A stretch of DNA of 40,901 nucleotides from a virus, in the IMG/VR virus record IMGVR_UViG_3300031857_000455, positions 1 through 40,901 of that record, one strand, 5' to 3'. The translations under genes were made by a program, and so were the position numbers. This document shows, piece by piece, positions 23,345 through 29,714 of the stretch. Under the pieces are notes generated by a model. The model was not told where the DNA came from and made no database searches. It saw nothing but the letters and a program-made list of their open reading frames with translations. The stretch's first letter is position 1. Each line of letters opens with the position of its first letter.

Positions 23345-24670
23345 TTATTTTCTACCAAAAGTATCTCTAATTAATTTTAAAGAAGTATAAGAACGAGTAG
23401 CATCAAAATGATGACATAACTCTTTAATCATATATAGACCACTTTGATCCTCATCAAACTCTCTAGTAGAAGATCTAGAAATTTTAGGGAAAAGGCATTC
23501 TATTACATCACCAGCTCTTAAATTTGTATTTGAAGGAATCATTACATTCAAAGTTTGAATGAATAAATTATTATATCTCATCAATACTTGTGATTGATAC
23601 TCTGTAGGATCTGCATTAGATTCTCTAGAAATTCCTTTATCCATTGTACCAATATCAAGAATTCCCGTAACAATTCTCGTCGGGCAATCTCCTAAAGTTT
23701 TTCCAGCATTATCAGAAATTTTAGGAAGATTAATTAATTCTTTTCCAAGATTGTTTGTTTTGTCTGCATAATTACTATACTTAAATGTAACTTTTCCTGG
23801 TTCAGTAATATTTCCTGTAAGTGGATTAAAAAAGTATCTTATATTTGAATATGTTCCCAACCTTAGTTTTTCAATTAAATTGTGATTTTTTTGTATGGTA
23901 TAATTTAAAATTTTAAAGTCGTTATTGATTCTGTTACCATCTGCATCATATGTTTCAGTTGCCTCACTATAGATATATGTTGCTTTTTTTGGTTGTTGAC
24001 TCAATACATCAATTGATCTAAATTGAAATCCATCTACTGTTTGAAAGAAAAAGAATCCTGCTGTTCCATTTCCAGACTTTTCAGGAACTGATTTTGATGA
24101 TAACCAAGTTAATACCGTAAATGGTTTTCTTAAATTTCCAATAAAACTATATTTGTTTGAGGTTTTGTCAATTGTTCCAATCTTATTGACTTTTAAAACA
24201 TTTTCTAGAATTTTTTTAACAGATTCACTAATTGGTAACTCTGCATATTTTCTAGATACCCTAGTGGTTTCATTAGTGATTGCTTCTCTTGAAACCAAAT
24301 TAAGTGTAAAACTTTCTTTGTTATTTTCTGCAATCACATCGGCAATACTAGATACATACAAATAACTTTTTGGATCTGTAGAAAAATCTAATCCTGGATT
24401 TTCTTCACTATTCCCTGCAATTTTTATACCAACTCTTTCCCCACCTCTTAAAGGTAGACCAGTATAAATTGCTTGCAATTGGTTATCTTTACTGTCCGGA
24501 CCAACAACTGTATTACCTGTATTAATAACTCTAATTTTTGCAGTAATAGTTGGGGAGAATATATCCTCATAATAATCAATTGCTACAGAACCTGATGTAA
24601 TATCTACAGTTCTTGACTGATCATTTGCCTCAATTGTAATTTCTTCAAATATTGACTGTTTAATTGACAT
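23345..24670 (-). CDS. gp27: Baseplate hub protein, gp27-like (441 aa)
   Basis: A 441-aa protein starting MSIKQSIFEEITIEANDQS. The first 120 residues have the DITSGSVAIDYYEDIFSPTITAKIRV and SSIADVIAENNKESFTLNLV strands typical of the tube-like domains of gp27-type hub proteins. Further signs are LTWLSSKS with FFFFQTVDGFQFRSID (about 200-220) and MLMRY/LNVMIPSNTNLRAGDVIEC (about 385-405), the last being the barrel closing segment. The usual T4 length is about 390 aa. UAAUG coupling to the upstream lysin gene and a 6-nt gap to the gp5-like gene fit a hub cassette. The assignment rests on pattern and order, not on an alignment. Confidence 0.65.
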   Translation of the reverse strand: MSIKQSIFEEITIEANDQSRTVDITSGSVAIDYYEDIFSPTITAKIRVINTGNTVVGPDSKDNQLQAIYTGLPLRGGERVGIKIAGNSEENPGLDFSTDPKSYLYVSSIADVIAENNKESFTLNLVSREAITNETTRVSRKYAELPISESVKKILENVLKVNKIGTIDKTSNKYSFIGNLRKPFTVLTWLSSKSVPEKSGNGTAGFFFFQTVDGFQFRSIDVLSQQPKKATYIYSEATETYDADGNRINNDFKILNYTIQKNHNLIEKLRLGTYSNIRYFFNPLTGNITEPGKVTFKYSNYADKTNNLGKELINLPKISDNAGKTLGDCPTRIVTGILDIGTMDKGISRESNADPTEYQSQVLMRYNNLFIQTLNVMIPSNTNLRAGDVIECLFPKISRSSTREFDEDQSGLYMIKELCHHFDATRSYTSLKLIRDTFGRK

Positions 24671-26712
24671 TAGACGTAATTTAAATCTAGGAGAAGTTTG
24701 TTTCTAATAAAATTATTTAACATAGCAGATTCATTAATTGAAAATACAGTACCACCACCTCCACCACCTACCATAACTTGTTGTATAATGGGAGAACTTC
24801 TGTCGTCAATTACAACTACTTTTCTCCCCTGCCTTTCTTGCGTTATTCCTTCCGCAAGACCTTCTCTATAAGAACTATCTATTTGTGCTTGCTGTTCTTC
24901 TTGAGTAGTTACTGCTGGGGAGATAGGAAGCAGTGGAACTGATGATCTTGATTGAGATGTTACTTGGGCTGGAGTTTTCTTAATTGGATGATTTTTTAAC
25001 CAGGTTGGAATATCTTCACGAGTTCTAAAATTTCCCATTGAATCTGGAGTATCTTTTGAGATCTCCCAGTGTAAATGAGGTCCAGTAGATCTTCCAGTAT
25101 TTCCAACATATCCTAACAATGCTCCCTGATTAAATCTTTGACCTTTTTTAACCTCAGCAGGCTTTAACATGTGACCAAAGAAATGATATGAACCATAAAC
25201 ATCATCTTTCCATATAATCCAATACCCATACCCAGCTCCGTGTTCAGGACCTCTTCCAGGAGCACGATTTTCGTGTGTAACAATACCAGAAAAATATGCA
25301 TAAAGTGGAGCTCCTGATGGAGCTGCTAAATCATATCCAGTGTGTGTCCTTCCATCCCTCAATCCCATAGTAGACGTTATAACAGCACCTGAATTGGGTT
25401 TGAATGGACTAAAAGGAACTCTTGCAGGTCTTCTTCCCATAGAAGAACCACTATCTCCAGAAACTGCAGCAAAATTGGATAATGGAGTAGGTCTTGCCGG
25501 AGATGGGGATGGTGCTGTTAAACCTAAATTTGGAATAGATGATGAAGATCTATTTGTTCTTCCATATTCATATGAACCAGGTCCTACAAAAGTTCCAAAC
25601 ATATTGTCATTAGGATTTCTCCTTCTCAAATCAGTAGAACTGGGATTGGATGGAGTAAGACCTTTTCCTACAAAATCAGTTCTATTTTCAACCCAGGATG
25701 CCGCATTTTTTTGTAATGTTGGATTTGTAAGATTATTAGCAACTCCTTTAATTGTTGCTTCATCAAACCCTGTTGCCTTTGCTGCTGATTTTGCATCAGT
25801 AATTTGATACCATTCTGAATTTGTGTTTCCAGATGAATTTCGTTCGGGATAATCACGAGTTGGTTGATACTGGCGTTTTGCCAAAATCACTTGTCTCATG
25901 TCCTTTCCACCAGGAAATACTCCTGCTGCTACACGATTATAAATTGACTGCGCCACATCTGCTTGCCCTTGTGGATCGCTGTCCTCACGGGCAGCAACAG
26001 CAACTAAAGTCCAAAAATCAGCATTTCCACCACGAGTTCTGGATGATGGTGAAGGTTGTCGTCTACTTTCTTGTTGTTGTCTTTCTCTTTCTAATGCATC
26101 AGAACCAAGTGGAGGAATATCAGTAAAAGGTTGAAGAATTACATTAAATGCATCTAGAATTCCTTTTCCTAAATCATCAACATTTGTCATTAGATCTTCA
26201 AATGAATTTTTCAATTTTGAAGAACTATCCAAGAAATCAAAACTCAAAATATTACTAAAAGCTGTACCAAAAACATTAGTGATTCCCGTTAATACTTTTA
26301 GAGTCTCATCACCATAATTAGTTAAAATACCTCCAGCAGTTCTAAGTCTTCCAACAAGGCGATTTCCTAATGCAACCCAAGTTGGCAGATTACCTAAAAT
26401 CCAACCAGCAGTGGCATACTTCAAAAATCCAATTAGTCTATCACCAATATTCAATCCTTGTTGAGTAATTCTTGATAAAACCTTTGGACCTCCTCTGGAT
26501 CTTACAAGAGTAGGTGCTAGTAATTGAGTTTGTAAAATATCTCTTTTATCTCTATCCTCTCTTCTTTTTTTAAGAATTTTAATATTCGAATACAAATTTT
26601 TCTTTTGTTTTGCATTAGAATTTAAAGAACTCTGTATCGTTTTAACTGTTTTTCCAGTCTGTGATGCTGAGGATGTTAAACCTTTGAGAGAAATTGTAGG
26701 TTTTATTGCCAT
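24670..26712 (-). CDS. Tape-measure-like protein fused to SleB-type hydrolase and M23 endopeptidase (680 aa)
   Basis: Three parts are visible. The N-terminus is a basic coil (1-65) plus a hydrophobic segment (93-116, LIGFLKYATAGWILGNLP) as in tape-measure proteins. Residues about 230-330 resemble the SleB/Hydrolase_2 cell-wall hydrolase: FWTLVAVAAREDSDPQGQ and DVAQSIYNRVAAGVFPGG with a conserved Glu. Residues about 440-560 form a complete M23 (LytM) zinc peptidase: HTGYDLAAPSGAPLYA supplies the first His and Asp, YGSYHFFGHM and GRSTGPHLHWEIS supply the HxH. Two peptidoglycan activities, one glycan-directed and one peptide-directed, would open the wall during DNA injection. The C-terminal tail (GGGGGG, LNYV) resembles that of the 422-aa neighbour. 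Confidence 0.85.
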   Translation of the reverse strand: MAIKPTISLKGLTSSASQTGKTVKTIQSSLNSNAKQKKNLYSNIKILKKRREDRDKRDILQTQLLAPTLVRSRGGPKVLSRITQQGLNIGDRLIGFLKYATAGWILGNLPTWVALGNRLVGRLRTAGGILTNYGDETLKVLTGITNVFGTAFSNILSFDFLDSSSKLKNSFEDLMTNVDDLGKGILDAFNVILQPFTDIPPLGSDALERERQQQESRRQPSPSSRTRGGNADFWTLVAVAAREDSDPQGQADVAQSIYNRVAAGVFPGGKDMRQVILAKRQYQPTRDYPERNSSGNTNSEWYQITDAKSAAKATGFDEATIKGVANNLTNPTLQKNAASWVENRTDFVGKGLTPSNPSSTDLRRRNPNDNMFGTFVGPGSYEYGRTNRSSSSIPNLGLTAPSPSPARPTPLSNFAAVSGDSGSSMGRRPARVPFSPFKPNSGAVITSTMGLRDGRTHTGYDLAAPSGAPLYAYFSGIVTHENRAPGRGPEHGAGYGYWIIWKDDVYGSYHFFGHMLKPAEVKKGQRFNQGALLGYVGNTGRSTGPHLHWEISKDTPDSMGNFRTREDIPTWLKNHPIKKTPAQVTSQSRSSVPLLPISPAVTTQEEQQAQIDSSYREGLAEGITQERQGRKVVVIDDRSSPIIQQVMVGGGGGGTVFSINESAMLNNFIRNKLLLDLNYV

Positions 26713-26713
26713 T

Positions 26714-27982
26714 TTATATCACCACATTATAATTGAGTTGAGCATATAATGTGTAAAAATTATCAGGATTTGCAGAAGGAATTAATGGAACATCAGTTAA
26801 AGTTCCACCCCCACTAGAAGAAATTGTAGATTCTTGTTGATTGCCACTTTGAAGATAGACAACATCTGGAGCAGGTTCTGCAGGAGGTTGTAAATTCCTT
26901 TGTTGTGTTGGTGGAGTTTGAACTTGAGACTGATCGGATCTAAATGGAACTACTTTAAGTTCCATTGGTCCTGCTGATGCTGATTGTGTTGTAGAAGTTA
27001 AAACCGTATCGGCAGCGGGAGCTGCCATTTCTGTTGTAGAAGCATTTAAATTAGGTTCTTCAACATTCGTTCCAAAAATATTTGGAATAGATAAAGTTTC
27101 AAGAAAATTAGAATTTTGGAGTTGATTTGTGATATTACCCAATCCTTCTTTTGCTTTGTCTCCAAAAAAATTATATACTAGAGATGATGTTTCTGCAACT
27201 GAATTTGGAAATAATGCAGTAGTTCCATAGATAGAAGAATTAGTGTAATCTCCAATCAAAGCAGATGCTCCTGCACCAAATCCAGAAGCAAGTTGTGTTA
27301 TTGGTCTCAAAAATCCTTGTAGTGACCCCATAGGACCACCACCAGATGAAGAACTTGTCGATGAAGAGTCTTGATCTGTCGATGGTGTAGTTCCTTTTCC
27401 TAATATACTATTAAAAGCATCAGAAATTGCCTTGAGGGGAGATTTAGCAAGAGATGATATACTCTTAGAAATATCATCTACAACTCCACCAATAGACTTT
27501 ATAACTGATCCAAATCCATCTTTAATAGATCCTAATCCAGATCCTATAGAATCAAAAATATTTTTTAGAAGATTTTCAACCCCTGTAAGAGTACTTTTTC
27601 CAATATCAACTGCTTTACTTAAACCTTTTAAAAATACTCCACCAATAACACCAACAAATAAAAATTTTAAAGCATTTGAAATGTTATTAAAAGTTGAATT
27701 TAAAGTTTTTTCTACTTTATTCACAGGTTCCACAAAAGAAGCAGAAACTTGCCTCTCAAGTGCATCTTCTTGACCTACTCTAATTTTCCTTTCAGATAAA
27801 AGTTGCTCTTCTCTTCTTTCATCTAAAAGTTTTTGCTGGTCCTGAGCACCGTCTACCCTTATTAAAGTTGCAATTCCTTGAAGACCATTATTAGTTGAAA
27901 CAAGTTCTGAACGAACTCCTTCTAACTGCCCCCGAAGACCTATCAATTGAATACTACTTGTAAAAGGAGTTTCGTTATCCAT
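26714..27982 (-). CDS. Tape-measure/hub protein candidate (422 aa)
   Basis: The N-terminal 95 residues are a charged coil (KLLDERREEQLLSERKI). Residues 104-120 are hydrophobic (ALKFLFVGVIGGVFLKG), followed by glycine/serine-rich amphipathic repeats (IFDSIGSGLGSIKDGFGSV). The C-terminal half is low-complexity and proline/serine-rich and ends LNYNVVI. This build, and the place directly after the gp26/T-extension frameshift pair, are those of a tape-measure protein (gp29 position). It is short for one; the 680-aa neighbour has a similar N-terminal plan, so the two may share the task. Start codon ATG overlaps the end of the T-extension by 8 nt. Membrane insertion during DNA delivery is inferred. 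Confidence 0.65.
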   Translation of the reverse strand: MDNETPFTSSIQLIGLRGQLEGVRSELVSTNNGLQGIATLIRVDGAQDQQKLLDERREEQLLSERKIRVGQEDALERQVSASFVEPVNKVEKTLNSTFNNISNALKFLFVGVIGGVFLKGLSKAVDIGKSTLTGVENLLKNIFDSIGSGLGSIKDGFGSVIKSIGGVVDDISKSISSLAKSPLKAISDAFNSILGKGTTPSTDQDSSSTSSSSGGGPMGSLQGFLRPITQLASGFGAGASALIGDYTNSSIYGTTALFPNSVAETSSLVYNFFGDKAKEGLGNITNQLQNSNFLETLSIPNIFGTNVEEPNLNASTTEMAAPAADTVLTSTTQSASAGPMELKVVPFRSDQSQVQTPPTQQRNLQPPAEPAPDVVYLQSGNQQESTISSSGGGTLTDVPLIPSANPDNFYTLYAQLNYNVVI

Positions 27983-28148
27983 TCGGTGAATTCTTTAGAT
28001 TTTCTTCTTCGATATACTGTTGAAGTAGACTAATATAAATCTCTCTTTCCCAAGGAATCATATTTTCCAACTCTGTTAATGAATATTTATGATGGTGAAT
28101 CAAGGCAAAATTAGTTTTGTAGTATGACGCAAGATCTTCATGCGCCAT
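27975..28148 (-). CDS. T-extension of the gp26 tail/hub assembly chaperone, made by -1 frameshift (57 codons from its ATG)
   Basis: A small frame not listed as a gene by length rules. From the ATG at 28148 it encodes 57 aa (MAHEDLASYYKTNFALIHHH...) with the element YSLTELENMIPWEREIYISL, a signature I associate with the T part of G/GT-type tail assembly chaperones. AGGA abuts the ATG, which is too close for normal initiation. Instead the frame is exactly -1 to gp26 and is open back to a slippery T TTT TTC (28163-28157), so the product is expected mainly as a gp26 fusion (28870 to 27975, about 297 aa). It ends within the start of the tape-measure candidate. The short stand-alone form cannot be excluded. 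Confidence 0.75.
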   Translation of the reverse strand: MAHEDLASYYKTNFALIHHHKYSLTELENMIPWEREIYISLLQQYIEEENLKNSPNG

Positions 28149-28150
28149 TC

Positions 28151-28870
28151 CTAGGCGAAAAAAGATGTTAGACCCTCCAATACAACCTCACTTTCTACGC
28201 CAGTATTTGGATTTTTTAATTTAACAGTATGAGATAGTTTTGGCATTGTCTCAAAGAACTTTTCAATTTCTTTAAATTGTTGAGAAGTTAGTTGTTCTAG
28301 AAAATCATTCAACTCTTTCTTTGTGGAATCTGCTGCAGCCCAAGATTCTTCTTCATTATAGATTTGTTCTATACAAGAAGCAATCATATTGAATGTATCT
28401 TGAACTCCATTATTATCTTCGTTTGAAAAATTATTCTTTACAAATTCTTGCATTGAAGGATATTTCATTCGTAAAGTTAAACTGTCATCAAGTTTAATAT
28501 CTCTCGAATGCTCTGATTTTATAACTACTTTAATCTCGTCTAGATTAATTGTTGCAGGAACTTGTGTTGTTCCATCATCAGGACAAGTTAAAAGAACATC
28601 AACATCTTCACCGACTGACTTACCACGAATATTTAAGAAGAGATATTCAATATCAAAAATTGATAATTGATCCACTTTAATTCCACGAGTCAAAATACAA
28701 TTTCCAATTACAGTTTTTAATGCATCTGCAATTTGCTTTGGATCTTCACTCTCCATTGCAATAATGAGAATTTTTTCTTCTTTAACTAGAAAAGGTCTGT
28801 ATTTAATTTTCTTTTTTGATGATGGTATTTCCAACTCATAGGTTGGTGTTGCAATTGTTGGTAAAGGCAT
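28151..28870 (-). CDS. gp26: Baseplate hub assembly protein gp26-like (G-type chaperone, 239 aa)
   Basis: Starts MPLPTIATPTYELEIPSSKK, with IKYRPFLVKEEKILIIAMES at 23-42, the characteristic opening of the T4_baseplate (gp26-type) family. It contains two cysteines in SCIEQ and LTCPDD contexts and a helical C-terminal half (SWAAADSTKKELNDFLEQL). In T4, gp26 is needed for hub assembly and is not a major virion part. Its length is slightly above T4 gp26 (208 aa). The last codons before the stop hold a slippery heptamer and an internal GGAGGG, so a fraction of ribosomes should shift into the T-extension. Late motif at 28896-28903. Confidence 0.8.
   Translation of the reverse strand: MPLPTIATPTYELEIPSSKKKIKYRPFLVKEEKILIIAMESEDPKQIADALKTVIGNCILTRGIKVDQLSIFDIEYLFLNIRGKSVGEDVDVLLTCPDDGTTQVPATINLDEIKVVIKSEHSRDIKLDDSLTLRMKYPSMQEFVKNNFSNEDNNGVQDTFNMIASCIEQIYNEEESWAAADSTKKELNDFLEQLTSQQFKEIEKFFETMPKLSHTVKLKNPNTGVESEVVLEGLTSFFA
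28157..28178 (-). promoter_or_regulatory. Programmed -1 ribosomal frameshift cassette
   Basis: The codons TCT TTT TTC at the gp26 end contain the X XXY YYZ heptamer T TTT TTC (28163-28157). A Shine-Dalgarno-like GGAGGG (28178-28173) stands 9 nt upstream, the spacing known to stimulate -1 shifting in dnaX. Weak stems follow (CGCC/GGCG and CGCA/TGCG within 28157-28128). The gp26 stop TAG (28153-28151) comes two codons after the heptamer. Confidence 0.8.
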
Positions 28871-28895: not shown

Positions 28896-28903
28896 TATTT
28901 AGT
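28896..28903 (-). promoter_or_regulatory. Late promoter motif for gp26
   Basis: ACTAAATA; its TAA is the stop codon (28901-28899) of the gp54 gene. The gp26 start lies about 25 nt downstream. Confidence 0.55.
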
Positions 28904-29714
28904 TGATAACTGGGCGTCCTTGAGAATCAAAAAATCTTCTATTAACCTCTGCAGTAGTTCTGGTGTCTGTATTAGCATCATAAAAAACAACACCACTATT
29001 GCCACGGACTGGAACTAGTCTAGGGCTTGGTACACTACCAGATTGATTTGATTGCTTATTATTATCGTTACCTACAAATGTGTTAAGGCTTAGTGCTCTT
29101 CCTGCAATGTAACGATCAAATTTAAATGTTGCAGAGACTTTCATAATATCAGATGATTGATAAGAAATTGTAGGTGCGCTCATAGCATATGGCCAAAGAC
29201 CTATAAATCTATATTCTATTTCTTGATTATAATCTCTATCAAATTTAAGAATTCTTGTAAAACTACATTTATAAGTTTCTGGATACTGCATTCTCATAAA
29301 GTAGTTTGAATTTGCCTGATTTACTGGTGGCAAACTACTTCCAAGTGGATTATGAGAACCACTTGCAATAAATTCCATCCAAGATTCTAAGAACTTCATT
29401 TGCTGATAATTACTATCAACATAAAAATCTAGTCCAATTTCATCATACAATCTTGCAGTAGCAAATTTTTCACTAATTCCGGTGAAGTTTCCATCAACAT
29501 TTTTAGTAGCAAAAGATGCTGTCGGAAGAGAAGCATTATAACAAAGCAGACCTGCGTTTTCAGCAACAAATGGCAAAGTTACTGATCTGCGTATCAAATA
29601 ATTTGTTAAGGCTATTGGTAGTCCTCCAAAAATTACTTGATAATGGGAAGTTTGTGCTAGATTTCCAAATAGTGGTTTAAAATCAGATATTCTTCTGGGT
29701 CTTATTGTTGACAC
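28899..29714 (-). CDS. gp54: Baseplate tail-tube initiator, gp54-like (271 aa)
   Basis: The frame opens at GTG (29714), giving MSTIRPRRISDFKPLFGNLA. Residues about 20-215 follow the tail-tube fold shared by gp54 and gp19: LCYNASLPTASFATKNVDG, FYVDSNYQQMKFLESWMEF, YRFIGLWPYAMSAPTISYQS and KVSATFKFDRYI. T4 gp54 is 320 aa; this one has a shorter, polar C-terminus (NNKQSNQSG onward). It would cap the hub and nucleate tube polymerisation together with gp48, which is encoded on the opposite strand 870 bp away. The divergent spacer carries a late motif for each strand. GTG is the only reasonable start; no ATG lies between the promoter and the conserved region. Confidence 0.75.
   Translation of the reverse strand: MSTIRPRRISDFKPLFGNLAQTSHYQVIFGGLPIALTNYLIRRSVTLPFVAENAGLLCYNASLPTASFATKNVDGNFTGISEKFATARLYDEIGLDFYVDSNYQQMKFLESWMEFIASGSHNPLGSSLPPVNQANSNYFMRMQYPETYKCSFTRILKFDRDYNQEIEYRFIGLWPYAMSAPTISYQSSDIMKVSATFKFDRYIAGRALSLNTFVGNDNNKQSNQSGSVPSPRLVPVRGNSGVVFYDANTDTRTTAEVNRRFFDSQGRPVIN

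Follow-up and report, generated by a model that had tools for sequence, protein, structure and literature searches.

A conserved -1 frameshift signal at the end of gene 26 in a T4-like cyanobacterial virus points to a G/GT pair of tail-assembly chaperones

The stretch of DNA analyzed in this study (the window, 40,901 nt of the IMG/VR record IMGVR_UViG_3300031857_000455) derives from a T4-related virus of cyanobacteria, and the features of the frameshift locus described in the following are encoded on its minus strand. The gene for gp26 (28151..28870) codes for a protein of 239 aa, the putative short chaperone form G (TAC-N), which matches PF12322 with E=2e-76 and 257 bits (curated cut-off 24.5) and phrog_150 with E=5e-83. 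PF12322 was matched by 55 of 55 aligned relatives as well. The gp26 gene is preceded by a gene for a tail-tube-like protein (28899..29714; PF23849, E=1.8e-16; tail tube family phrog_45, E=4e-35) and followed by an open -1 frame, the T domain (TAC-C; 27975..28157), whose product matches phrog_634, annotated as baseplate hub assembly catalyst (gp51), with E=1e-26. The same product also corresponds to the C-terminus of phrog_150 (E=1.5e-6), which implies that some members of this family carry both parts in a single chain. An open -1 frame had already been described in the initial annotation with a length of 57 codons; the frame is indeed open, but this number applies to its ATG-started part only, whereas the extension that would be read after a frameshift comprises 60 codons and a stop, giving a fusion product of 298 aa. 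With its end, the T frame overlaps by 8 nt with the next gene (26714..27982, 422 aa), which had been considered a tape-measure candidate. PHROG tape-measure families do match this gene, although only weakly to modestly (best E 6.8e-7), so that the gene order consists of a clear tail tube gene, G/GT and a tape-measure candidate that is based on these matches and on its position. The gene located two downstream of the frameshift site (24670-26712, 680 aa) contains a Peptidase_M23 domain and gave a weaker match to a cell-wall hydrolase, and genes past T are annotated as peptidase M15, lysozyme or endolysin in some relatives.

The final gp26 codons read TTG GAG GGT CTA ACA TCT TTT TTC GCC TAG. They contain the slippery heptamer T TTT TTC in phase (28163-28157), the Shine-Dalgarno (SD)-like sequence GGAGGG 9 nt upstream of it (28178-28173) and the gp26 stop codon TAG as the second codon past the heptamer (28153-28151), all three as initially annotated. 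After a -1 slip, the protein would continue as ...TSFF-RLGMAHEDLASYYKTNFALIHHHKYSLTELENMIPWEREIY... up to the stop at 27975. In the 80 closest environmental loci, TTTTTTC was found in phase without exception, while their stops were TAG, TAA or TGA. Another two scans, for which more distant cyanophages served as queries, yielded 156 uncut loci, all of which contain an in-phase T6 heptamer (149 TTTTTTC, 7 TTTTTTA). Altogether, an in-phase T6N heptamer is present at 254 out of 254 loci scored (244 TTTTTTC, 7 TTTTTTA, 3 TTTTTTT), a set that includes many close relatives and hence does not represent independent events; the heptamer is likewise kept in 151 out of 151 representatives, among which the type of the gp26 stop varies (TAG 102, TAA 31, TGA 18). 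The same site occurs at the same place in Aeromonas phage Ah1 and its relatives, Vibrio phage D483, phi-Grn1, Acidovorax phage ACP17 and Stenotrophomonas phage Moby, and Pelagibacter phage HTVC008M and Sinorhizobium phage phiN3 possess TTTTTTT at this site. A search for relatives using gp26 of Vibrio phage D483 as query found none. The conservation of the heptamer is thus real and well beyond chance.

One record, Stenotrophomonas phage IME-SM1, appeared to be an exception, with five Ts and T in the +1 frame (L084, 4716-4730). Since its sequence is one base short of all 14 other sister records (701 instead of 702 bases), of which the one that was read, Moby, contains six Ts, the five-T site and the resulting false gp26 C-terminus are probably due to a sequencing or assembly error, and IME-SM1 was rejected as an exception.

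Such a constant heptamer might in principle be a functionless reflection of a Phe-Phe motif under constraint at the protein level, and conservation of GLxxFF is indeed seen in the protein. The codon data already contradict this reading: the codon choice T-TTT-TTC/A/T is fixed at all 254 loci, whereas the form T TTT TTY is used in only 3 of the 139 Phe-Phe pairs found elsewhere in gp26 genes, and at the 7 loci with TTA as second codon the Phe residue is lost while the slipperiness is kept. We therefore regard a mere by-product as so improbable that it can practically be neglected.

In addition to the heptamer, the surrounding sequences were inspected for elements known to stimulate frameshifting. 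An SD-like 5-mer located 5-18 nt (about 9 nt) before the heptamer was detected in 138 of 151 representatives, in comparison to 0-20 of 151 at eight control offsets, so that the element which the initial annotation compared with the internal SD of dnaX is conserved. Furthermore, 37 of 46 contexts near the window use GAG for the Glu residue encoded inside the SD-like site, compared with a background of 29% for the remainder of the gene. On the other side of the heptamer, starting 8 nt past it, the window contains a putative stimulatory hairpin of 8 bp (ATGGCGCA / TGCGTCAT; 28124..28148, arms 28148-28141 and 28131-28124; z -2.5). This hairpin was absent from the initial annotation, and no earlier report of either the hairpin or the SD-like element was found in the open-access literature.

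Across 46 distinct sequences, 97.8% of the cells in the hairpin columns are paired, a value that was reached in none of 500 shuffles, while slid versions of the pairing gave 16 to 54% paired cells. Using a tree of 76 sequences calculated from gp26 minus the signal region, the sixth pair was found to have undergone at least 13 changes and to be paired in 75 of 76 sequences, which was matched by none of 2000 shuffles. At this pair, a mostly silent third position (Ala GCN) tracks a downstream Ala/Glu/Val change, which points to pairing at the level of the RNA. In other clades, hairpins of a different sequence occupy roughly this position (CCCTC/GAGGG, GGCTCTC/GAGAGCC and others). The mean fold energy in 45-nt windows peaks just past the heptamer (-11.7 kcal/mol vs. 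a gene mean of -5.3 kcal/mol), with a mean z against shuffles of -2.6 after the heptamer and -0.5 at a control position. Counting against a frameshift, S-WAM2 and ACG-2014i lack the SD-like element, and S-RIM12 and HTVC008M are without an obvious hairpin. The window itself contains all three parts of a dnaX-type signal, i.e., SD-like site, heptamer and hairpin. The heptamer, the SD-like site and the -1 frame were all found to be conserved in relatives, so that the comparison by which the initial annotation might have been refuted turned out in its favor.

The position of the T6 run between the SD-like element and the conserved hairpin, both of which are stimulators acting on ribosomes, also bears on the question of whether the two frames might be joined by slippage of the RNA polymerase instead of the ribosome. 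A homopolymer run does exist, and in HTVC008M it comprises 8 Ts. In nearly all members, however, the run is limited to six Ts and is followed by C or A, and it is always in the phase X XXY YYZ. Slippage of the polymerase consequently appears very unlikely.

A further possibility is that the 57-codon frame represents a separate small gene ('gp51') with its own ATG, translated by restart after the gp26 stop. In the clade of the window, this stop is followed after 2 nt by an ATG, which is kept in 43 of 46 distinct contexts near the window, and in Salmonella phage CRW-SP2 and Vibrio phage D503 the T frame starts from a TAATG overlap in the absence of the heptamer, so that restart may operate there. 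Nevertheless, 60 of 150 representatives have their first ATG at a distance of at least 9 codons into T, 32 of 150 contain no ATG, GTG or TTG within the first 18 T codons, and yet the residues ahead of the first ATG are conserved (FRIALFHNTLEGYYKTNF...). With no start near the slip site in many relatives, a frameshift is the only evident route to the whole T domain there. Moreover, GGAGGG in the window is 24 nt away from the ATG, too far to serve it, and a separate gene would leave the invariant heptamer, its phase and the hairpin unexplained. We thus consider a separate gene to be a very improbable explanation. An ATG 3 codons past the slip site is present in 84 of 150 representatives, including the window, and in these some extra free T may be produced by restarting ribosomes in addition to a frameshift product. 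As for existing annotations, many public genomes list the T domain as an independent gene ('gp51') that begins at a false internal start, or do not list it at all: it is unannotated in several published genomes and has a false start in others (L086, 4717-4887; L087, 4762-4923; L117, 3214-3393; L119, 3211-3393).

To gain insight into the fold of gp26, the window protein was modeled with AlphaFold2 using 55 relatives, which gave a model of good quality (pLDDT 87.9). Among the chains ranked highest by Foldseek, the three best matches in VIA-align, covering residues 1-96, were 2OB9 of HK97, titled as a tail-assembly chaperone (Z 8.0), 3FGX (Z 7.6) and YqbN (3KLU, Z 7.1), the latter two being described structural relatives of 2OB9. 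The next structure followed at Z 4.7. As the Foldseek E-values were weak and a Z near 8 is moderate, the weight of this comparison lies in the agreement of the matches, which supports a predicted tail-assembly chaperone fold of the HK97 2OB9 type (TAC-N) for the N-terminal domain of gp26. The gp26 and gp51 profiles yielded nothing credible when compared with the sequences of solved structures, and for the gp51 model Foldseek gave no meaningful match and a second comparison no chaperone.

In T4 itself, both gp26 (208 aa) and gp51 (249 aa) match PF12322. T4 gp26 ends just past the slip position, while gp51 continues in frame through this position into the T domain. The same pair is present in 44RR2.8t, and in EC-F2 the genes for gp26 and gp51 are adjoining. 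A tree with 34 rows places the gp26 and gp51 sequences of T-even phages together in a single supported group, within which gp51 makes up one branch (99/99 and 100/98). T4 gp26 and gp51 are sister paralogs that correspond to G and GT. The natural reading is that a duplication in the T4 lineage replaced the frameshift, a direction that depends on a tree whose root is not fixed. A weak match of T4 gp26 to the gp28 family (E 9e-4) suggested T4 gp28 (gene 28, L081, 6349-6882) as a possible third chaperone-like paralog, which was not supported by the profile comparison with its probability of 2%. T4 gp51 was described to be required, yet to be absent from the final particle (PMC3004832). In Vibrio phage D503 and in Salmonella phage CRW-SP2, a member of the Ackermannviridae, the T frame overlaps with the gp26 stop as TAATG and no heptamer was seen (L085, 4720-4899; L089, 4813-4962).

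The features of this locus are best explained, by a wide margin, by a programmed -1 frameshift that yields a G/GT chaperone pair, and as judged from the sequence data this explanation is highly probable. The proposal of the initial annotation that gp26 is a G protein with a GT form is supported by the conserved signal, by the T4 gp26/gp51 pair as G/GT paralogs and by the predicted fold. In this view, gp26 and the -1 frame behind it would constitute one tail-assembly chaperone gene. Most ribosomes would stop after gp26 and thereby form G (239 aa), while a minority, held up by the upstream GGAGGG and the downstream hairpin, would slip from TTT TTC to TTT TTT and carry on in the -1 frame to form GT (298 aa). 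By analogy to lambda, many G and few GT molecules might then coat the tape-measure protein, with the T domain bringing in tube subunits. More tentatively, and with a little less than even confidence, it can be suggested that the supply of G and GT within one chaperone family is set in three ways, namely by frameshifting with a hairpin that compensatory selection keeps rebuilding (cyanophages, pelagiphages and phages of the Ah1 and phi-Grn1 types), by a pair of paralogous genes (T4 and its relatives) or by an overlap of stop and start codons (one phage of the Ackermannviridae and one Vibrio phage), and that the ratio is regulated by the SD-like element and the covarying hairpin, a role not reported so far.

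The abstract of an earlier study on T4-like phages reportedly names T4 genes 26 and 51 and states that several groups of T4-like phages have conserved the frameshift. This study of the TAC genes of T4-like phages (Vladimirov, Gautam & Davidson, 2022, Virology 566:9-15, doi 10.1016/j.virol.2021.11.003) is cited in PMC12846349 and PMC10885494; as rendered there, poly-T slippery sequences are present in TAC-N genes of T4-like phages (PMC12846349) and some of these phages possess one short and one fused long TAC gene (PMC10885494). The core finding of a frameshifted chaperone in T4-like phages was therefore already published in 2022, and the link between T4 hub assembly and lambda-type chaperones put forward in the initial annotation is supported but not new. 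A review from 2016 still excepts T4 from the G-T frameshift of long-tailed phages (PMC5009743). New in the present analysis are the covariation of the hairpin, the statistics of the upstream site, the environmental breadth and this particular member. As far as the citing papers describe the published system, it resembles the window in its TAC-N and TAC-NC forms, with window gp26 belonging to the same gene family, and differs in that the window is a fragment of an uncultured phage. T4 gp26 and gp51 share PF12322 with window gp26, and in gp51 the T domain is present at the slip position; in contrast to the window, they are encoded by two divergently transcribed genes, so that T4 does not need a frameshift. 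For gpG/gpGT of lambda, the comparison with the system described here gave no sequence-level match; the order of tube, G/GT and tape measure would be the same, provided that the tape-measure candidate is correctly assigned, whereas the slippery heptamer of lambda is a different one and clear SD-like and hairpin elements are found here. The signal of E. coli dnaX consists of an SD-like site about 10 nt upstream, a slippery heptamer and a hairpin a few nucleotides downstream, the same three-part layout as in the window. It uses A AAA AAG in place of T TTT TTC, and the shift shortens the product in dnaX, whereas it would lengthen the product here.
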